A stretch of DNA of 63,978 nucleotides from Niastella vici. GTDB lineage: Bacteria > Bacteroidota > Bacteroidia > Chitinophagales > Chitinophagaceae. This document shows positions 47,511-55,148 of this stretch, one piece after another; the stretch's first letter is position 1; every line of letters begins with the position of its first letter. Location of the stretch: the NCBI RefSeq assembly GCF_002077945.1, contig NZ_LVYD01000047.1:1-63978 (forward strand), written 5' to 3'. Both the position numbers and the translations under genes were made by a program. The notes under the pieces are model-generated. The model did not search any database, was not told where the DNA came from, and saw nothing but the letters and a program-made list of their open reading frames with translations.

Positions 47511-47704
47511 TCATACTTCCTTGAATAATCATACATTTCTTTTTAAAAAGTGAACACCTGCTGTAACATTACCGAACACCTGAGTTTCTAACAGCAACTG
47601 TAAGTTGTTGGTTAGTAGTAGGTAGAAAATCTGGCATTTTTTAGGTTACAAATGCCTGGCAGGTAGTGATCTGGCTGCGGTTCAAACAGGATAAAAAGAA
47701 ATGT

Positions 47705-50038
47705 ATGATTAAAAACTACTTTTTAATAGCTGTCCGGAATCTTTTTAAAAATCCCTTATTTTCTTTTATCAATATTTCAGGGCTGGCATTAGGAATGGCC
47801 GGTGCAGGTATACTCTTGTTGAATATTCAATATGAATTCAGTGTTGATCAGTTTCATGAAAAGAAAGACAGGGTATTCAAGGTATATAACAAAATCGTAT
47901 CGAATGGCCGGCTCCAATGCTATGACCTTACATCGGCTCCATTAGGCCCGGCGTTGAAAAATGATTTCCCGAACATAAAGCAAATGACCCGGGTGGTGAG
48001 TACGGGAAAATTATTTAATTATAAGGATAAAAAATTTGAGGCCCAGGGTTCTTATGCCGATGAAGCCTTTCTCAACATGTTTAGCTTCCCGTTAGTAAGC
48101 GGGAACAGGCAAACTGCATTAAAAGATCAGCATTCGATAATTCTTACACAACAACTGGCAAAAAAGATCTTTGGCGATGAAGACCCTGTAAATAAGGTCA
48201 TCAGGCTCGATAGTGCCGATAACCGAACTGTTACGGGTGTGTTGAAAGACATACCGTTGAACAGCTCCTTGAAATTTGATTACCTGCTGCCCTGGTATGA
48301 TAATAAAAGTAAGTGGGATAATTATTATGCTACTACCTATGTTGAATTAGCAAGTGCCGGTGAGGTAAACAGTGTTAACAAACAGATAAGTGATGTGATC
48401 AGCAGGCATAGCAAAAATGAAGAAGGCACCCAGATCTTTTTGCATCCGGTAAGTAAAATGCATATACAACATCACTTTGATGAAAAGGGCAGGCCTGAAA
48501 CCGAATCAGATATTTATTTTCTTTCCGTACTGGCGGCTGTGATGTTAATGATCGGTTGTATAAATTTCATGAACCTGAGCACCGCACGCAGCGGCAAAAG
48601 AGCAAAAGAAGTAGGAGTACGAAAAATAATGGGTGCCATAAAACAATCATTGATACTACAGTTTATAACTGAATCAACCCTGATCACCTGTATTGCAGGC
48701 AGTATAGCCCTCCTTATAGTTCAGCTGGCCTGGCCTGTATTTAGCATAATGGCAAAAATACCAGTGAATATTCCCTGGCAATCGCCGGCTTTCTGGCTGT
48801 CAATATTGGCCTTTATTCTTTTTACCGGGTTATTGGCTGGTAGTTACCCGGCTTTTTATTTATCGGCCTTTAAACCGGTAAAGGTGTTGAAAGGTATATT
48901 TAACAATAAGAGCACACTGTTAACTCCACGCCGCATATTGGTAGTGGTACAATTTATAATTGCCATTTCACTCATCAACTTTGCCATCATCTTTCGCAAG
49001 CAGGCAAATTTTACCGAGAACCGCGATCCGGGATTTATGAGAGCCGGTTTGCTGTTTCATTCCATAACCAACGATCTGCGTAGGAATTATGCAGTTGTTG
49101 AGCAGGAGCTAATGAATACCGGAATGGTTGAGGCCGTTTGTAAAACCAATATGCCGTTGACAAGAGCCGGCATCTGGATAAGTGGATTTGAATGGGCTGG
49201 TGGCGAAAACAGTAAAAGCATAAACTTCAGTGTGTTTACTACAACGGGAAATTTTGTAAATACAAATGGGCTTACTTTATTAAAAGGAAGAGATATTGAT
49301 TATAATACTTTTCATACAGATACCGCTTCCGTCGTAATTAATGAAAGCGCCAGTAAGGAATTAGGTTTCGCCAACCCGGTAGGCCAGACAATAAAAGACG
49401 GAAATTTTAACTGGAAGATAGTAGGGGTGGTAAAGGATTTTTATCAGAGCAATCCTGGTGATCTTGTACGGCCCGCCATGATACAATATGGCCGAAGTGA
49501 TGGTATAATTAATATAAGAATGAAAACCGGCAGCGCGTCGGTGCAAAGCATTAAAAAAATTGAAGAAATATTAAAAAGGAATAACCCCGGTTATCTCACC
49601 GAGCTGCAATTTGCTGATGTGGATTTTGCCAATACCTTTACACAACGTAAAAATACATCTGGTTTAATAAACACGTTTACTTTCATTGCTATTTTCATTG
49701 CCTGCATGGGTCTGTTGGGGCTTACTGTGTATATGACTGAACTTAGAAAGCGGGAAGTTGGCATCCGAAAAGTGCTGGGAGCAAGCGTAGCAAAGGTCAC
49801 TACATTATTAACAAAAGAGTTTATAAAGTTGGTCGTTATTGCAATGATCATCGCATCACCATTGGCCTGGCTTTTCATGAACTCCTTTCTACAGCAATTT
49901 GGTTACAGAACTAACCTGAGTTGGTGGATATTACCGGCATCAGGCGCTGTAGCCCTGCTGATTGCAATTGTTACTATAGGTTTTCAGGCAATAAAAGCGG
50001 CGGTTGCCAACCCGGTTAAAACGCTGAGAAGTGAATAG
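47705..50038 (+). CDS. ABC transporter permease, MacB/FtsX type
   Basis: A 777-aa double-unit permease: MIKNYFLIAVRNLFKNPLFSFINISGLALGMAGAGILLL at the N-terminus, a long periplasmic region with a MacB core domain (FSVDQFHEKKDRVFKVYN...), an FtsX block with four helices (VMLMIGCINFMNLSTARSGKRAKEVGVRKIMGA), and a second half ending ELRKREVGIRKVLGASVAKVTTLL... and VANPVKTLRSE. ATG 47705 is chosen over a GTG at 47666. No ATPase gene lies next to it, as is common for these repeated Bacteroidota permeases. Substrate unknown; efflux or lipoprotein-linked export is possible. Confidence 0.87.
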   Translation: MIKNYFLIAVRNLFKNPLFSFINISGLALGMAGAGILLLNIQYEFSVDQFHEKKDRVFKVYNKIVSNGRLQCYDLTSAPLGPALKNDFPNIKQMTRVVSTGKLFNYKDKKFEAQGSYADEAFLNMFSFPLVSGNRQTALKDQHSIILTQQLAKKIFGDEDPVNKVIRLDSADNRTVTGVLKDIPLNSSLKFDYLLPWYDNKSKWDNYYATTYVELASAGEVNSVNKQISDVISRHSKNEEGTQIFLHPVSKMHIQHHFDEKGRPETESDIYFLSVLAAVMLMIGCINFMNLSTARSGKRAKEVGVRKIMGAIKQSLILQFITESTLITCIAGSIALLIVQLAWPVFSIMAKIPVNIPWQSPAFWLSILAFILFTGLLAGSYPAFYLSAFKPVKVLKGIFNNKSTLLTPRRILVVVQFIIAISLINFAIIFRKQANFTENRDPGFMRAGLLFHSITNDLRRNYAVVEQELMNTGMVEAVCKTNMPLTRAGIWISGFEWAGGENSKSINFSVFTTTGNFVNTNGLTLLKGRDIDYNTFHTDTASVVINESASKELGFANPVGQTIKDGNFNWKIVGVVKDFYQSNPGDLVRPAMIQYGRSDGIINIRMKTGSASVQSIKKIEEILKRNNPGYLTELQFADVDFANTFTQRKNTSGLINTFTFIAIFIACMGLLGLTVYMTELRKREVGIRKVLGASVAKVTTLLTKEFIKLVVIAMIIASPLAWLFMNSFLQQFGYRTNLSWWILPASGAVALLIAIVTIGFQAIKAAVANPVKTLRSE

Positions 50039-50065: not shown

Positions 50066-50950
50066 CTATTCACCCATTTTCTGTTTCAGCGTGGCGAGTT
50101 CCGCTTCAATGTTTACGAGACGTTTATAAATTTCACCGGGGCCGGGCAGTTGCCTTGTCCAACGTTCAACTACATACCATATTTCGGCCACTTCTTCAAC
50201 GTCGAGCACGATGGTAGGAAATTCAATGGAACCACCGTGATTGTTATCACTTTTTACAATGATCTTTCCTTCGTGATGACGGTTGATCAGCCGTTTTATC
50301 AATACACCCTGCGTACGGGTCACCAGCACATACACCCGGTCGTCACGAACTTCTGAAATATCGGCCCAACGTGCGATCACGCGGTCTGCATCCTGCAAGG
50401 TGGGAAACATGGAATGCCCTTCTACTTCAAATATGCGGTAAGTGCCATTGGTATAACCAGGCAAACGATAAGCCGATAAAGATTGAATAAATTGCGGATC
50501 ACCATAGCCCGACATATAACCAGCCCTGGCTTTTACCGGTACATAAATAATATTCTCTTCACCCTGACTATCTATAGTAATAATTTTTGGCGCCTGGAAC
50601 CGCCGGTAAGGAAATAGCGTACTGCCTACCACCGAAACGGGCAGGTCATCATCATCAGGTGGTAAAAGGGCAGCGCTACTCTCAGCTACCATACTGGTAT
50701 CCTTGTTTTCCTCCTGTTCCTTGTATTCAACCAGGTTTCCTTTCGAAAGATCAACACTTAAGAGCTCATCAATCGAAATGTCGAAAAATGAGGCAATTTT
50801 TTCTAATGTACCAAGGTCTGGCTCAGAATGGGTTGTCTCGTAATTAGAGAAGGTATTTCGCTTCAAACCCAATGCAGTGGCCACTTCGGCCTGGGTTTGC
50901 CCTTTCTTTTTCCTTAAAAAGGCCAGATTCTGTGCAAAAAAAGTTGGCAT
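50066..50950 (-). CDS. XRE-family repressor with S24 peptidase domain (LexA/CI-like)
   Basis: A 294-aa repressor. Residues 10-65 form a Xre HTH (LRKKKGQTQAEVATALGLKRNTFSNYETTHSEPDLGTLEKIASFFDIS). Residues about 135-255 are an S24 self-cleaving domain with cleavage bond Ala143-Gly144 (VKARAGYMSG), nucleophile Ser180 (EGHSMFPTL) and Lys219 (GVLIKRL). A short coiled coil (IYKRLVNIEAELATLKQKMGE) ends the protein. ATG 50950 is the start; the longer frame upstream reads through operator DNA. It is divergent from the Cro-like/Gam operon, whose promoter it should repress until RecA-stimulated cleavage (family knowledge). Confidence 0.9.
   Translation of the reverse strand: MPTFFAQNLAFLRKKKGQTQAEVATALGLKRNTFSNYETTHSEPDLGTLEKIASFFDISIDELLSVDLSKGNLVEYKEQEENKDTSMVAESSAALLPPDDDDLPVSVVGSTLFPYRRFQAPKIITIDSQGEENIIYVPVKARAGYMSGYGDPQFIQSLSAYRLPGYTNGTYRIFEVEGHSMFPTLQDADRVIARWADISEVRDDRVYVLVTRTQGVLIKRLINRHHEGKIIVKSDNNHGGSIEFPTIVLDVEEVAEIWYVVERWTRQLPGPGEIYKRLVNIEAELATLKQKMGE
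50778..50795. promoter_or_regulatory. 18-nt operator-like word inside the repressor gene
   Basis: ATGTCGAAAAATGAGGCA is identical over 18 nt to 50981-50998. It lies in codons for KIASFFDIS of the repressor HTH domain, about 200 nt downstream of the promoter copy in genome terms. It could be a second binding site permitting loop repression. Confidence 0.45.
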
Positions 50951-50963
50951 AGAGTAAATTTTT

Positions 50964-50998
50964 TGCCTCAAAAATTGGTTATGTCGAAAAATGAGGCA
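50964..50998. promoter_or_regulatory. operator region of the S24/Cro module
   Basis: TGCCTCA (50964-50970) and TGAGGCA (50992-50998) form an inverted pair over a 21-nt spacer. The right half belongs to the 18-nt word ATGTCGAAAAATGAGGCA. It covers the start of the repressor gene and overlaps the operon promoter, so binding would affect both genes. Confidence 0.55.
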
Positions 50999-51006
50999 TA
51001 TATTTG
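50975..51006 (+). promoter_or_regulatory. promoter of the Cro-like/Gam operon
   Basis: TTG at 50975-50977 (-33) and TATATTTG at 50999-51006 (-7, fits TAnnTTTG) are separated by 21 nt, the expected spacing. The 18-nt operator word fills the gap between them. Transcription would start near 51013, before ATG 51029. Confidence 0.65.
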
Positions 51007-51007
51007 C

Positions 51008-51026
51008 TGTATCGAAAAGCGATACA
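51008..51026. promoter_or_regulatory. inverted repeat at the operon start site
   Basis: TGTATCG-AAAAG-CGATACA has perfect 7-nt arms. It lies between the -7 box and ATG 51029, at the expected transcription start, a good position for a Cro-like repressor site or a leader hairpin. Confidence 0.5.
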
Positions 51027-51028
51027 AT

Positions 51029-51271
51029 ATGCATGGGGCTAAAAGTAGGCAAAAAAACAAAGAAAATGTGCTTCGGAGGCGAGATGTGCCCGCTTTGGTG
51101 GCAGAAATTCACGGAGTTACCGCCGATCATGTCAGAAAAGTGGTCAGAGGCGATCGGGAGAACCAGGAGATACTGGCAACCTACATGCAAATAATAAAGA
51201 ACGACAACCTGCTTTTGCAGGCCGTGAAAAATGTGATCCCTGAAAATACCAATACCGACCCTGAAAAATGA
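51029..51271 (+). CDS. small Cro-like helix-turn-helix protein
   Basis: An 80-aa protein with HTH-like segment RRRDVPALVAEIHGVTADHVRKVVRGDRENQEILATYMQII at about 17-56. It lacks any other domain. Position and size fit a Cro/Ner-type antirepressor next to an S24 repressor. ATG 51029 follows the start-site inverted repeat directly; the frame upstream (from 50963) crosses the promoter. Its stop overlaps the ATG of the next gene (ATGA), giving coupled translation. The spacing and motif resemble small regulators of Bacteroidota Mu-like phages (recalled). Confidence 0.7.
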   Translation: MHGAKSRQKNKENVLRRRDVPALVAEIHGVTADHVRKVVRGDRENQEILATYMQIIKNDNLLLQAVKNVIPENTNTDPEK

Positions 51272-51681
51272 AAAGCCCGGTCATGACCCATAATCCAATG
51301 CAAAATGATCTGGCGCCTTATCTAAAATCGCTTATCTGCCATATGCTGGGTTGGGACGAACTGCAGTATGGAGATTTTCAGTATCAAAGTGGCTGTTTGT
51401 ATCTACAATATTATATCTCGAAAGATCCAGCGGCTATCGATGAAGTATTGCAGCACCAGCTGTATTGGAATTGGTGGAAGAGCGAATGGTTCGACAGAGA
51501 TTATGTTCTTGCCGGCACCCTGCTGAAATGTGATAACCTTTCTATGAATGAGAAGAGAATGTTGTATCAGAAATGGCATGATGCCCGTGTATTGGCCGAT
51601 GAATGTTCGCCGGTAGGATCAATTATGAGCAATGGTTATAAAACAATGATTAGCGAAATTATAAAATCGGAAGTATTATGA
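51268..51681 (+). CDS. unknown protein of the Gam module
   Basis: A 137-aa acidic, Trp/Tyr-rich protein (LYLQYYISKDPAA, HQLYWNWWKSEWFDRDYVLAGTLLKC, RMLYQKWHDARVLA). No signal peptide, membrane segment or known motif is seen. The 4-nt overlaps (ATGA) at both ends show tight translational coupling with its neighbours, so it belongs to the same operon and probably the same process. Confidence 0.6.
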   Translation: MKSPVMTHNPMQNDLAPYLKSLICHMLGWDELQYGDFQYQSGCLYLQYYISKDPAAIDEVLQHQLYWNWWKSEWFDRDYVLAGTLLKCDNLSMNEKRMLYQKWHDARVLADECSPVGSIMSNGYKTMISEIIKSEVL

Positions 51682-52115
51682 ATGTACTCACAAGAAAAGA
51701 ACTCTCGATCGTAAGCCATGTAATTACACGCGCCCAATTTGAGATTCAACAGCAGGCGGGTATTGATGTAGTATTGGTTCCACGTTACTCGAACAAAATG
51801 CTCGAAGATGATCTTCGGCAATTGTTCGAAGCAATGTGCGACTGCTGGAATGTTCAACTATCATGGGTAAGTGATAAAAGCCGTGCAAACGACCGGCCCG
51901 TGATGCGGAAGCTGTTGTGGATGGCAGGCAAAAAAAGATTTCCTCACGTCCCTTATTCACTGTTGGCAAACCTTACAGGCGCTACCGACCACGCCGGTGT
52001 AATTAAAGGTATCAGAAGCGGATACGACTGGCTGAAGGTGCGTGATGAAAAGATCCTGAAATACTATGAGCCCGTAAAAAGTTATTTCAGTGAACTGGAA
52101 GCAGAGCCTGCATAG
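51678..52115 (+). CDS. DnaA domain IV-like DNA-binding protein without AAA+ domain
   Basis: A 145-aa protein. The segment at about 70-130 (NDRPVMRKLLWMAGKKRFPHVPYSLLANLTGATDHAGVIKGIRSGYDWLKVRDEKILKYY) follows the DnaA C-terminal pattern of R-x-x-x-x-L, a bent helix, then T/G-x-x-DHxxVxxxxxxxxx. The central DHAGVIKGIR aligns with the DnaA signature (RDHSTVxxAxxK). There is no Walker A motif, so it is a DNA-binding domain alone, with an N-terminal helical region of unknown role. Its ATG overlaps the preceding stop (ATGA). Confidence 0.6.
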   Translation: MNVLTRKELSIVSHVITRAQFEIQQQAGIDVVLVPRYSNKMLEDDLRQLFEAMCDCWNVQLSWVSDKSRANDRPVMRKLLWMAGKKRFPHVPYSLLANLTGATDHAGVIKGIRSGYDWLKVRDEKILKYYEPVKSYFSELEAEPA

Positions 52116-52164
52116 ATCAATTTGCAACAACAACCTATTTAACTAACAAATAAAAGCTAAACGT

Positions 52165-52689
52165 ATGTTCCGTGAAAAAAAGAAAGTGATCAATAATGTT
52201 GATTACGACCAGGCCCAGGATGCTTCTGCCCGATATGCTGAAATTTCTGCCCGCCTTGGCTTTATAGAAGCCCAAATGAACGAGCGCATCAATAGTATAA
52301 AAGATGAATACGCCGATGAGATCATTCATTTGTCACGTGAAAAAGAAAAGCAATTTGAAGTGTTGGAAGTGTATGCCAAAGAGCAAAAAGACAATTGGGG
52401 CCGCCGCAAAAGCCTGGATATGTTACACAGTGTGATCGGCTTTCGTACAGGAACACCCAGGGTTACCAAAGACAAAATGCTTTCCTGGGATAATATACTC
52501 GACATGGTGAAAGAAAGATTCCCATCATTGATACGCGTAAAATGCGAGCTCGATAAAGAAGCGATCATTGCCATGCGCGACGATGCAGAATTTCTCGAGC
52601 TGCAAAAGCAATGTTATGTAGATGTGGTGCAGAACGAAACATTTTTTGTGGAGACCAAAATGCTGGAATTGCAACGCCAACGCGCCTAG
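52165..52689 (+). CDS. gam: Mu Gam-like host-nuclease inhibitor (DNA-end-binding protein)
   Basis: A 174-aa protein of the phage Mu Gam family. The long helix YAEISARLGFIEAQMNERINSIKDEYADEI is followed by a coiled-coil stretch (about 50-80) and FRTGTPRV at about 93-100, matching the conserved GxRxxTP turn of Gam. Mu Gam binds double-stranded DNA ends as a dimer and blocks exonucleases, and it is structurally related to Ku. The gene follows the DnaA-like gene by 49 nt and ends the operon. No other Mu genes (transposase A/B, morphogenesis) occur in the window. Confidence 0.85.
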   Translation: MFREKKKVINNVDYDQAQDASARYAEISARLGFIEAQMNERINSIKDEYADEIIHLSREKEKQFEVLEVYAKEQKDNWGRRKSLDMLHSVIGFRTGTPRVTKDKMLSWDNILDMVKERFPSLIRVKCELDKEAIIAMRDDAEFLELQKQCYVDVVQNETFFVETKMLELQRQRA

Positions 52690-52743: not shown

Positions 52744-53817
52744 CTAGTAAGTAAGCCGTTCTGTTTCCACAGAGGGGCCTTTAATAAGACCTGAAGAAAG
52801 ATCATAATAATTAGTAAGGCGCCGGATGTGCCCCAGCCATTTCCTCTTTTGCTGAAAACTATCCATATCGCATATCAGGGTCTTCCTGCTCAATGCGCGA
52901 AGGGCCGCAATTGAATGAATTTCTGCAGTAACATCTTTCAACTGTTCCAACGACATCCAGCCCATGGCGTGCAAAGAGTGTATGGTTATGGCATAATCCT
53001 GTTTGTTTTTTGACGCATAGGGCATTTGCCATATTTTATAATTGATGCTGGCTATTTCAGCCATAAAATGCTGTTGCAACTGCCCAAAGTTCCGGTACAG
53101 GTTGGGCAACGTATAAACGCCGTTATGCACATCTTTATACACGTCGAAAGCATCATTGGTCAACTGCATAAGGCCCGCAACGGGATACAGCATCTCCAGT
53201 ATTTCCTGGCCGGGATAATGATCGAGCACCGCACAAAATAACAATACGGCATAATAGCTTTTGTTATAGGTGATGCGGTACAATTCATTTTCTGTGATTT
53301 GCCCGTTTAATTGTTTCAGGGATTCTTTTTGCCAGAAAAAAACTGCCTTCAGTTGCTCAACAAATAATTCGCGTTGCGGTGTAAGCCTTAATATTTCCAG
53401 GTATAATTTTATTACAAGCCGGTCTGTATTATTAACGGCCACATATGCTTCCGGGTTTTCAACCAGCGAGGCTATTTGTTCGTGGTCAAGTAATTTGTCA
53501 TCAAAAAGATCATCGAACAGCGGCCCGAAAACACTAAGTAAAATGATCCGGTGGCGTTCTTCCGCATTCAATTGTTTTCCCGTTAAATGGTACAGGTTCT
53601 CGCAAATGAGGTTCAGCCCCAGTTGCCAGTATTTAGTGATCCTTTTTATGTGCTGCGCAGAAAATGTTTGCGCATGCCCGGGCGCTACTTTGTTCAGCAA
53701 CTCCGGTAGGTGTTGCTGTAAGGATCGTTCCTGTTTCTTCACCAGCCGGTATAAGGCAAGCATCCTGCGCAGGATGCGGTAATTACTTACAGAAGAAGGA
53801 TGGCTATTTTGATGCAT
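52744..53817 (-). CDS. class 1 isoprenoid biosynthesis-type enzyme
   Basis: A 357-aa all-helical protein. It has a first Asp-rich motif DDLFDD (102-107) and a second motif NDAFDVYKDVHNGVYTLPN (221-239), matching the metal-binding layout of isoprenoid synthases (a DDxxD motif and an NDxxD-x2-KD-x4-G motif). The rest lacks obvious similarity to farnesyl- or geranylgeranyl-diphosphate synthases. It may be a terpene synthase, a prenyltransferase or a non-classical member. ATG 53817 is chosen; a longer frame begins at a TTG. It follows the dehydrogenase gene on the same strand with an 11-nt gap, so the two are probably cotranscribed. Confidence 0.65.
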   Translation of the reverse strand: MHQNSHPSSVSNYRILRRMLALYRLVKKQERSLQQHLPELLNKVAPGHAQTFSAQHIKRITKYWQLGLNLICENLYHLTGKQLNAEERHRIILLSVFGPLFDDLFDDKLLDHEQIASLVENPEAYVAVNNTDRLVIKLYLEILRLTPQRELFVEQLKAVFFWQKESLKQLNGQITENELYRITYNKSYYAVLLFCAVLDHYPGQEILEMLYPVAGLMQLTNDAFDVYKDVHNGVYTLPNLYRNFGQLQQHFMAEIASINYKIWQMPYASKNKQDYAITIHSLHAMGWMSLEQLKDVTAEIHSIAALRALSRKTLICDMDSFQQKRKWLGHIRRLTNYYDLSSGLIKGPSVETERLTY

Positions 53818-53828
53818 TCCAGGCAAAT

Positions 53829-54683: not shown

Positions 54684-54869
54684 GATAATGTTTTTGCAAA
54701 GATTGGTGATTTTGACTAACTGTGATAAAGGTATTATTTGTATTAAAAAAGTACGGAAAGTATATTCGTATGTCAATAAATGAACTGAAATATGTCAAAT
54801 ATGAACTTTTATATGTAGTTGTTTGACATAATTAATGCAGATTGCGCGCTTTGCCTATTTCTTTGCAAT

Positions 54870-55148
54870 ATGGCGAAGGACAAGCGCTACGCGACTGTTA
54901 AAAAACTCATCGAAAGCGGCTATATAGAAAGCTTTGCGGGTGTATTGGAAAATATACCCAAGACGAATGTAGCACGTGATCTGGGCATGCATCACCAGAC
55001 TTTTGCCAAATTAATAAAATCCCCCGAAAAATTTGCTTTTAAAGATGCTATCAGGATTGCCTCACTGATTGATGTGGATGATATGACTATAATAAACCTG
55101 ATCTACAAGCAGTATGTTATAGAAAAGAAACACAAACGAAAGAAATAG
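54870..55148 (+). CDS. small HTH DNA-binding protein
   Basis: A 92-aa protein beginning MAKDKRYATVKKLIESGYIESF. The HTH-like part is VARDLGMHHQTFAKLIKSPEKFAFKDAIRIASLIDVDDMTIINLIYKQ at about 32-80, followed by a basic tail (KKHKRKK). The frame runs upstream to an ATG at 54819, but MAKDK is a better start. Similar small Xre-like proteins are widespread in Bacteroidota (recalled). It is divergent from the dehydrogenase gene and may control it. Confidence 0.7.
   Translation: MAKDKRYATVKKLIESGYIESFAGVLENIPKTNVARDLGMHHQTFAKLIKSPEKFAFKDAIRIASLIDVDDMTIINLIYKQYVIEKKHKRKK

Follow-up and report, generated by a model that had tools for sequence, protein, structure and literature searches.

Why would a bacterium keep the repressor and the DNA-handling genes of a Mu-like phage where no transposase stands beside them? 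The question is raised by a compact locus at positions 50066-52689 of a 63,978-nucleotide stretch of DNA from Niastella vici (the window), which is the complete contig C47 of a 10.06-Mb genome; the readable flank ends with the contig. The locus, which we call the module, holds a repressor of the S24 (LexA/CI) type and, divergent from it, a gene in the position of Cro or Ner, a gene here named U1, a stand-alone protein resembling domain IV of DnaA (DnaA-IV), and a homolog of the Mu Gam protein. We think it fairly probable that the module is a domesticated Mu-like early region kept by its host as a closed genetic switch, in which cleavage of S24 upon DNA damage would release DnaA-IV and Gam onto DNA ends. 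This reading starts from what the genomes display directly: the position of the module, its conservation, purifying selection on its core, the lack of MuA beside nine of ten copies, a half-operator set almost exclusive to it, and a parallel case in other genera.

Conservation and selection within the genus

Each of ten Niastella/Longitalea genomes encodes exactly one Gam homolog, and the other nine are 70-90% identical to that of the window. S24 and DnaA-IV adjoin Gam in every one of these genomes and, because the same module recurs in all ten, it is not a chance array. To its right, the genes Iso and HIBDH lie no more than about 1.5 kb from Gam in nine genomes and past a set of tail genes in Niastella caeni (G002); the GH30/permease neighborhood on the left is present in nine, and in the remaining genome, a Niastella metagenome-assembled genome (G007), the contig ends. 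A tree of S24, DnaA-IV, and Gam is congruent with a tree of Iso and HIBDH except for N. caeni, which is weakly placed in both (79 and 69). The matching trees of module and flanks speak for vertical inheritance, and we conclude that the module has been inherited vertically at a fixed place.

We next consider selection, for which we used simple Nei-Gojobori counts of the ratio of nonsynonymous to synonymous substitution rates (dN/dS) over 45 pairs; the median dS lies above 1 and the ratios give orders of magnitude only. S24, DnaA-IV, and Gam are open in all ten species, with dN/dS at or below 0.16 in every pair with a finite dS. Their medians are 0.063 for S24 (45 pairs), 0.037 for DnaA-IV (22 pairs, those in which dS is finite), and 0.089 for Gam (44 pairs), compared to 0.055 for GH30b, 0.075 for GH30a, 0.089 for HIBDH, 0.105 for Iso, 0.108 for the ABC permease, and 0.185 for HTH2 in the flanks, where the GH30 sets include some mispaired rows (paralogues). 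HIBDH of G001 has a stop in the aligned stretch and was dropped from both these counts and the flank tree. In the six genomes with no match to MuA or tail sheath, the window's included, the values are 0.053 for S24, 0.046 for DnaA-IV, and 0.105 for Gam, next to 0.116 for Iso, 0.095 for HIBDH, and 0.109 for the ABC permease. S24, DnaA-IV, and Gam are thus under purifying selection, at a level of constraint similar to that of their neighbors. Evolution is faster in the Cro-position gene and U1 (dN/dS about 0.2), and several genomes lack these genes or carry broken copies.

Such losses would be expected of a neutral, slowly decaying prophage scar, but this reading is contradicted by the low dN/dS of three genes that have stayed open at a median dS above 1, and by an invariant operator candidate inside the S24 gene (Oi, below); we find a scar scarcely credible. 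A preliminary description of this locus, made from the window's sequence, had proposed a domesticated module and had considered that it might be a scar in a single strain. Presence in ten of ten genomes disposes of the latter, and the fixed chromosomal place and purifying selection across the genus support the former. The five-gene order that it had suggested looking for elsewhere holds in part: the core of S24, DnaA-IV, and Gam is at its fixed place throughout the genus, but the full order is not kept, with the Cro-position gene and U1 absent in some genomes.

Probable origin in a Mu-like early region

The early region of bacteriophage Mu runs in the order c, ner, A, B ... gam. The N. caeni locus, between GH30 on the left and Iso/HIBDH on the right, reads S24, Cro-position gene, MuA (PF09299), a MuB-like ATPase, DnaA-IV, and Gam, followed downstream by endolysin, tail sheath, tube, tape measure, baseplate, and fiber-like genes. 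This is the only one of the ten genus genomes with MuA and MuB between S24 and Gam; the other nine module copies have no adjoining MuA. Among the best 80 of 285 viral relatives, the closest (L159, 54%) has the order S24-MuA-MuB-U1-DnaA-IV-Gam. As a control, we looked upstream of Gam at the viral loci where over 5.5 kb of sequence is available there; of these 42 loci, 37 have a MuA match and all 42 a MuB match. Within GenBank phages, the best Gam matches are unannotated fecal contigs (37-40%), and the nearest named ones are transposable phages of Porphyromonas gingivalis (32-33%). The gene orders of L159 and N. caeni agree with the derivation from a Mu-like early region that had been suggested for the window.

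That suggestion had come with the remark that no transposase or structural gene stands beside the module, and with the thought that a full Mu-like prophage might lie just outside the window. Searches of the window's whole genome returned neither a MuA homolog (N. caeni query, E 1e-5) nor a tail sheath (N. caeni query; DUF2586 sheath family), which extends the remark to the genome, and no MuA of the N. caeni family is found there.

In three other relatives, Niastella soli (G006), Niastella yeongjuensis (G009), and the metagenome-assembled genome, a part comprising a Cro copy, MuA, MuB, and tail genes lies elsewhere, lacking S24, DnaA-IV, and Gam, with the module at its old place. These are headless contractile-tail elements with no adjoining repressor (G006 C1:2367557-2386335, L088/L089; G009 C27:70033-89065, L090/L091; G007 C306, L092). 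They carry Mu-like inverted end motifs, both ends of which are seen in G006 and G009, and by eye their neighbors differ between these two genomes. Target duplications of 5 bp at the split elements are suggestive by eye, but the right ends differ by one base and we did not use them. No terminase, portal, or capsid was recognized among 20 of the 24 open reading frames of the N. soli element, scanned directly or as their N. caeni counterparts. The 144-aa tube protein has one match to a 'major head protein' family, which spans only part of that family, and its size and position fit a tube. The element is possibly a transposable tailocin.

The joined state in N. caeni may be ancestral with later deletion, or it may be secondary. 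If the ancestor had the MuA/tail part, we read the trees as calling for at least three separate losses of that part, each sparing the module. By eye, the right end of the N. caeni element (G002 C13, about 138056) lies inside what in the other species is the 3' end of Iso. End-like motifs occur at the N. caeni element and the split tail elements; in the window, none was seen by eye in the gaps between Gam and Iso (54 bp) or S24 and the ABC permease (27 bp). A small gene near HIBDH (window positions 54819-55148) has relatives to the left of the joined N. caeni element, inverted, and twice in G007.

Operator candidates and the proposed switch

Between the divergent genes lies an operator candidate, O1 (50963-50998), with the dyad TTGCCTCA...TGAGGCA. 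Its right half recurs inside the S24 gene as a second candidate, Oi (50778-50800); no strand is assigned to these sites or to O2 below. Oi is a run of 23 nucleotides invariant over nine S24 genes, the next longest invariant run being 12. The G007 copy was left out of this set, and of the S24 tree, as it ends at a contig end. Oi corresponds to seven identical codons in a row, against 40 of 209 identical overall among degenerate codons with a conserved residue (shuffle P 0.001), and its 17-mer core is present with no mismatch in all ten genomes.

In a genome-wide search allowing at most one mismatch, the 17-base half-site TGTCNAAAAATGAGGCA has two matches in each of nine genomes and three in G008. 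Twenty of the 21 matches are O1 and Oi, spaced 203-204 bp, while a reversed-pattern control yielded two matches in the ten genomes. The near confinement of the half-site to the module argues for a closed switch, with S24's own operon as its likely target. We infer that S24 binds O1 and Oi, possibly with looping of the DNA between them. The sole half-site away from the module is at G008 C6:209925-209941, with one mismatch; given this single extra site in ten genomes, we rejected S24 as a controller of other host genes.

Downstream of O1 is a -7 promoter element, TATATTTG (50999-51006, plus strand), which we take to be of the Bacteroidota type. It is identical in all ten module copies of the genus and in all three split tail elements. 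A second dyad, O2 (TGTATCG-N5-CGATACA, 51008-51026), is likewise common to the tail-element promoters of the three relatives. Allowing up to three mismatches, O2 plus the -7 element has 27 matches genome-wide: 12 with at most one mismatch, which are nine module promoters and the three split tail elements, and 15 that carry three mismatches, compared to four control matches. G003, where no Cro match was found, is the sole genome with a broken O2; there is one mismatch in the G009 module copy. The tail-element promoters lack O1 and Oi, and the tail elements carry their own Cro copy; the Cro-position protein is therefore the likelier ligand of O2. This pairing has one exception, G004, which keeps O2 without a full Cro gene.

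This shared block raises the possibility that a Mu-derived tail particle has been split in two, with the module as the controlling part that regulates a headless tail element elsewhere in the genome. The two parts are joined in N. caeni, and in G006, G007, and G009 the tail element, which has MuA and MuB but no adjoining S24, DnaA-IV, or Gam, has the same -7 element and O2 at its promoter as the module does, the 12 closest promoter matches being confined to the two. But six of the ten genomes, the window's among them, have no match to MuA or sheath and a module still under selection; O1 and Oi, the likely S24 sites, are not found at the tail elements; and O2 tracks the Cro-position gene somewhat better than it tracks S24. 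Regulation of the tail elements by S24, which the common block had suggested, was dropped as our main reading on account of the missing O1 and Oi, and we consider a split tailocin improbable.

The same promoters bear on superinfection immunity, in which S24 would be kept to block incoming Mu-like phages or tail elements with the same operators and the downstream genes would be riders. S24 is strongly constrained, MuA-bearing relatives with related S24 proteins exist in the family, and a section of one review proposes that lysogens of grounded prophages are favored through immunity (PMC6379469). However, DnaA-IV and Gam are constrained too, even where the genome has no MuA, as riders would not be, and tail-element promoters without O1 are not expected to be silenced by S24 through that site. 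We regard immunity as an unlikely reason for the module's retention.

Proteins encoded by the module

The S24 gene (50066-50950, minus strand) encodes 294 aa with a helix-turn-helix (HTH) domain (PF01381, 3.2e-11) and a peptidase domain (PF00717, 1.6e-7). An alternative start at TTG 51190 is unneeded, the start conserved in the genus being ATG 50950. To the right follow, all on the plus strand, the Cro-position gene (51029-51271, 80 aa), U1 (51268-51681, 137 aa), DnaA-IV (51678-52115, 145 aa), and Gam (52165-52689, 174 aa). The module is bordered on the left by the ABC permease gene (47666-50038) and on the right by Iso (52744-53826), which has no Pfam match.

Most of what the preliminary description had said of these genes stood up. 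It had called S24 competent for self-cleavage, and Ala143-Gly144, Ser180, and Lys219 are present exactly as it had numbered them, in the window copy and in all ten genus copies (the G007 protein ends after these residues). It had named a Mu Gam-like protein, which matches PF07352 at E 3.4e-24 over model positions 2-148 of 149 and PDB 2p2u at 3.3e-15. Its DnaA-IV-like gene is weak as a single sequence (E 0.058), and a profile of 16 relatives (A2) reaches 1.2e-9 against PDB DnaA. The ATGA overlaps that it had noted among the co-oriented small genes are two, linking three rightward genes. The label 'Cro-like' survives in part: the gene is in the Cro/Ner position, but no strong family or fold match accompanies it and the name rests on position. 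No family in Pfam, PHROGs, or NCBIfam (the first two searched with the stretch starting at 51023) matches the Cro-position gene below E 0.004; no HTH family matches it, and a single PHROG DNA-binding match reaches only 0.14. Its structural model (predicted local distance difference test, pLDDT, 75) is weakly HTH-like; the best fold match, at E 0.67, is to unrelated proteins, and HTH proteins appear from E 1.7. At the module, this gene is near full length in five genomes, a 25-aa remnant in one, and without a match in four.

U1, predicted to be all-helical, has no match in Pfam, PHROGs, or NCBIfam, and an attempt to identify its fold was given up (model pLDDT 80.5; best PDB match E 2.9, no structural relative found). 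Within the genus it occurs at the module only in G000, G005, and G008, and it is found in many Mu-like relatives. In species lacking U1 (e.g. L028 and L034), DnaA-IV is preceded by an in-frame leader, MTHMLLQKN..., that by eye resembles the start of U1; the leader looks as if it were the remnant of an internally deleted U1. DnaA usually has Thr-Thr after the Asp-His of its signature, where DnaA-IV of the module has Ala-Gly. Mu Gam inhibits RecBCD.

A second transposase-less class in other genera

PF07352 was found in 30 of 288 genomes of the family Chitinophagaceae, five of them from Niastella/Longitalea, with 27 matches in other genera. We examined 23 of these 27, leaving out G132, G152, G097, and G239. 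Seven of the 23 loci have MuA, two are cut by contig ends, two are minimal, and 12 form a second class, spread over seven genera (L135, L137, L138, L139, L140, L143, L145, L147, L148, L149, L150, and L153). At second-class loci, S24 is divergent from MuB, which is accompanied by DnaA-IV (11 of 12), a gene of about 105 aa (9 of 12), and Gam. The gap between S24 and MuB, as the genes were picked, is 62-351 bp, which leaves no room for MuA. Six of the loci were read through by eye and have bacterial-looking genes on both sides, and L139 and L143 have eight flanking gene pairs in common. The minimal form (L141 and L154) contains only S24, the gene of about 105 aa, and Gam.

In a tree of S24, the 12 second-class loci group in a single clade (100/99), which MuA-bearing loci separate from the Niastella clade (90/89). 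The Gam tree gives the same picture, with Niastella at 100/99; the tree-building tool issued a long-branch warning. Because the two trees part the second class from Niastella with MuA-bearing loci in between, two separate origins of the transposase-less module are likely. The promoter layout of all 12 loci resembles that of Niastella. An intragenic operator was also sought in the second class and rejected, being weak and in a sequence that follows conserved codons.

Proposed function

If the module works as a domesticated switch, S24 would sit on O1 and Oi in the resting cell and keep the operon silent. After DNA damage, RecA filaments would stimulate cleavage of S24 at Ala143-Gly144, and DnaA-IV and Gam would be produced. 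Gam would coat linear ends, slow nucleases of the AddAB/RecBCD type, and steer the handling of breaks, with DnaA-IV perhaps contributing duplex binding. A passage of one review describes Gam as protecting Mu from RecBCD and as able to mediate end joining of host DNA (PMC8987985). All ten genus genomes encode Ku, nine with two genes and one with a single gene, which rules out Gam as a substitute for an absent Ku. Gam probably does not replace Ku; with Ku genes in every genome, its role is probably that of an inducible shield for ends, working alongside Ku or ahead of it.

Gam freed by damage could also serve as a suicide or anti-phage device, blocking the cell's own end-resection enzymes and halting repair or invading DNA. 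The shielding of Mu progeny from RecBCD by Gam, as the same passage of PMC8987985 has it, fits such a device, and control by S24 would leave the gene silent as long as the cell is at rest. No toxin partner is seen, however, and a PADLOC search with nine proteins (E 0.01) gave matches only for S24 and second-class MuB. Those to S24 fall in its HTH region and comprise 13 regulator-type models, CapH included (best 6e-10), and those to MuB are to TnsC (8e-4) and PDC-S30 (5e-3). With only the HTH region and, weakly, the second-class MuB recognized, we rejected a known defense system, and we hold a device of this kind to be distinctly unlikely.

Several observations weigh against the switch that we favor. 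The presence of Ku makes end binding by Gam partly redundant and weakens a plain reading of Ku-like repair. Induction by damage and protection of ends are argued from residues and protein families. The dS values are near saturation, and those of DnaA-IV are finite for just 22 of the 45 pairs. Because the tail elements, too, have O2 and the -7 element, some of the circuit may have a different role in three species. The Ala-Gly of the DnaA-IV signature means that DNA specificity may have changed. Across the class, Gam is rare (5 of 395 genomes, two of these in Chitinophagaceae), suggesting a function dispensable for most relatives. Finally, the second class has support of only 71/61 in the Gam tree, and its DnaA-IV and Gam drift faster, with dN/dS up to 0.28 and 0.19, respectively (five pairs).

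A bolder version of the switch, which we offer as speculative and rather doubtful, is a new class of operon for the management of DNA ends, acquired from Mu-like phages on at least two occasions. A repressor that senses RecA would act through a looped two-operator switch, and Gam and stand-alone DnaA-IV, joined in the second class by a MuB-type AAA+ ATPase, would assemble on broken ends, protecting them and tagging them for controlled repair or replication restart.

Comparison with known systems

The module is real and conserved, and is most likely a variant of phage domestication. After loss of the transposase, bacteria seem to have kept a phage's decision switch and DNA-handling genes and not its tail or lysis genes, apparently more than once. 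The long-standing idea of Gam as a Ku-like protein common to phages and their hosts becomes directly testable in cultivable bacteria that have true Ku, and since near-exclusive half-operators make S24's own operon its likely target, a deletion phenotype should be interpretable. In the open-licence literature, the titles and abstract openings among the matches listed for tailocins, Gam/Ku, prophage domestication, Niastella, and Bacteroidetes Mu-like topics contain no description of the module.

Like Mu and the transposable phages of Bacteroidota, such as P. gingivalis phage BK068089, the module has a divergent repressor, a Cro/Ner-position gene, and Gam in the same order as in Mu, and its Gam is 32-33% identical to those of BK068089 and its relatives. 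Unlike them, the window locus has no MuA, MuB, or structural genes, and is vertically inherited at a fixed place. Its Gam matches the family (PF07352) and structure (PDB 2p2u) of Mu Gam and the Ku-like end binders, but is chromosomal, linked to a repressor, and accompanied by true Ku in the same genomes. S24 combines HTH and S24 domains with the Ala-Gly, Ser, and Lys of self-cleaving LexA/CI-type repressors, and differs from these in that its likely half-operator is all but restricted to its own operon (20 of 21 matches), with one copy inside its own gene. As in grounded or domesticated prophages, including R-type tailocins such as the P2-type BceTMilo as presented in part of one report (PMC5411513), phage genes have been immobilized and kept; unlike tailocins, most species of the genus keep the switch and the DNA-handling genes and not the tail.

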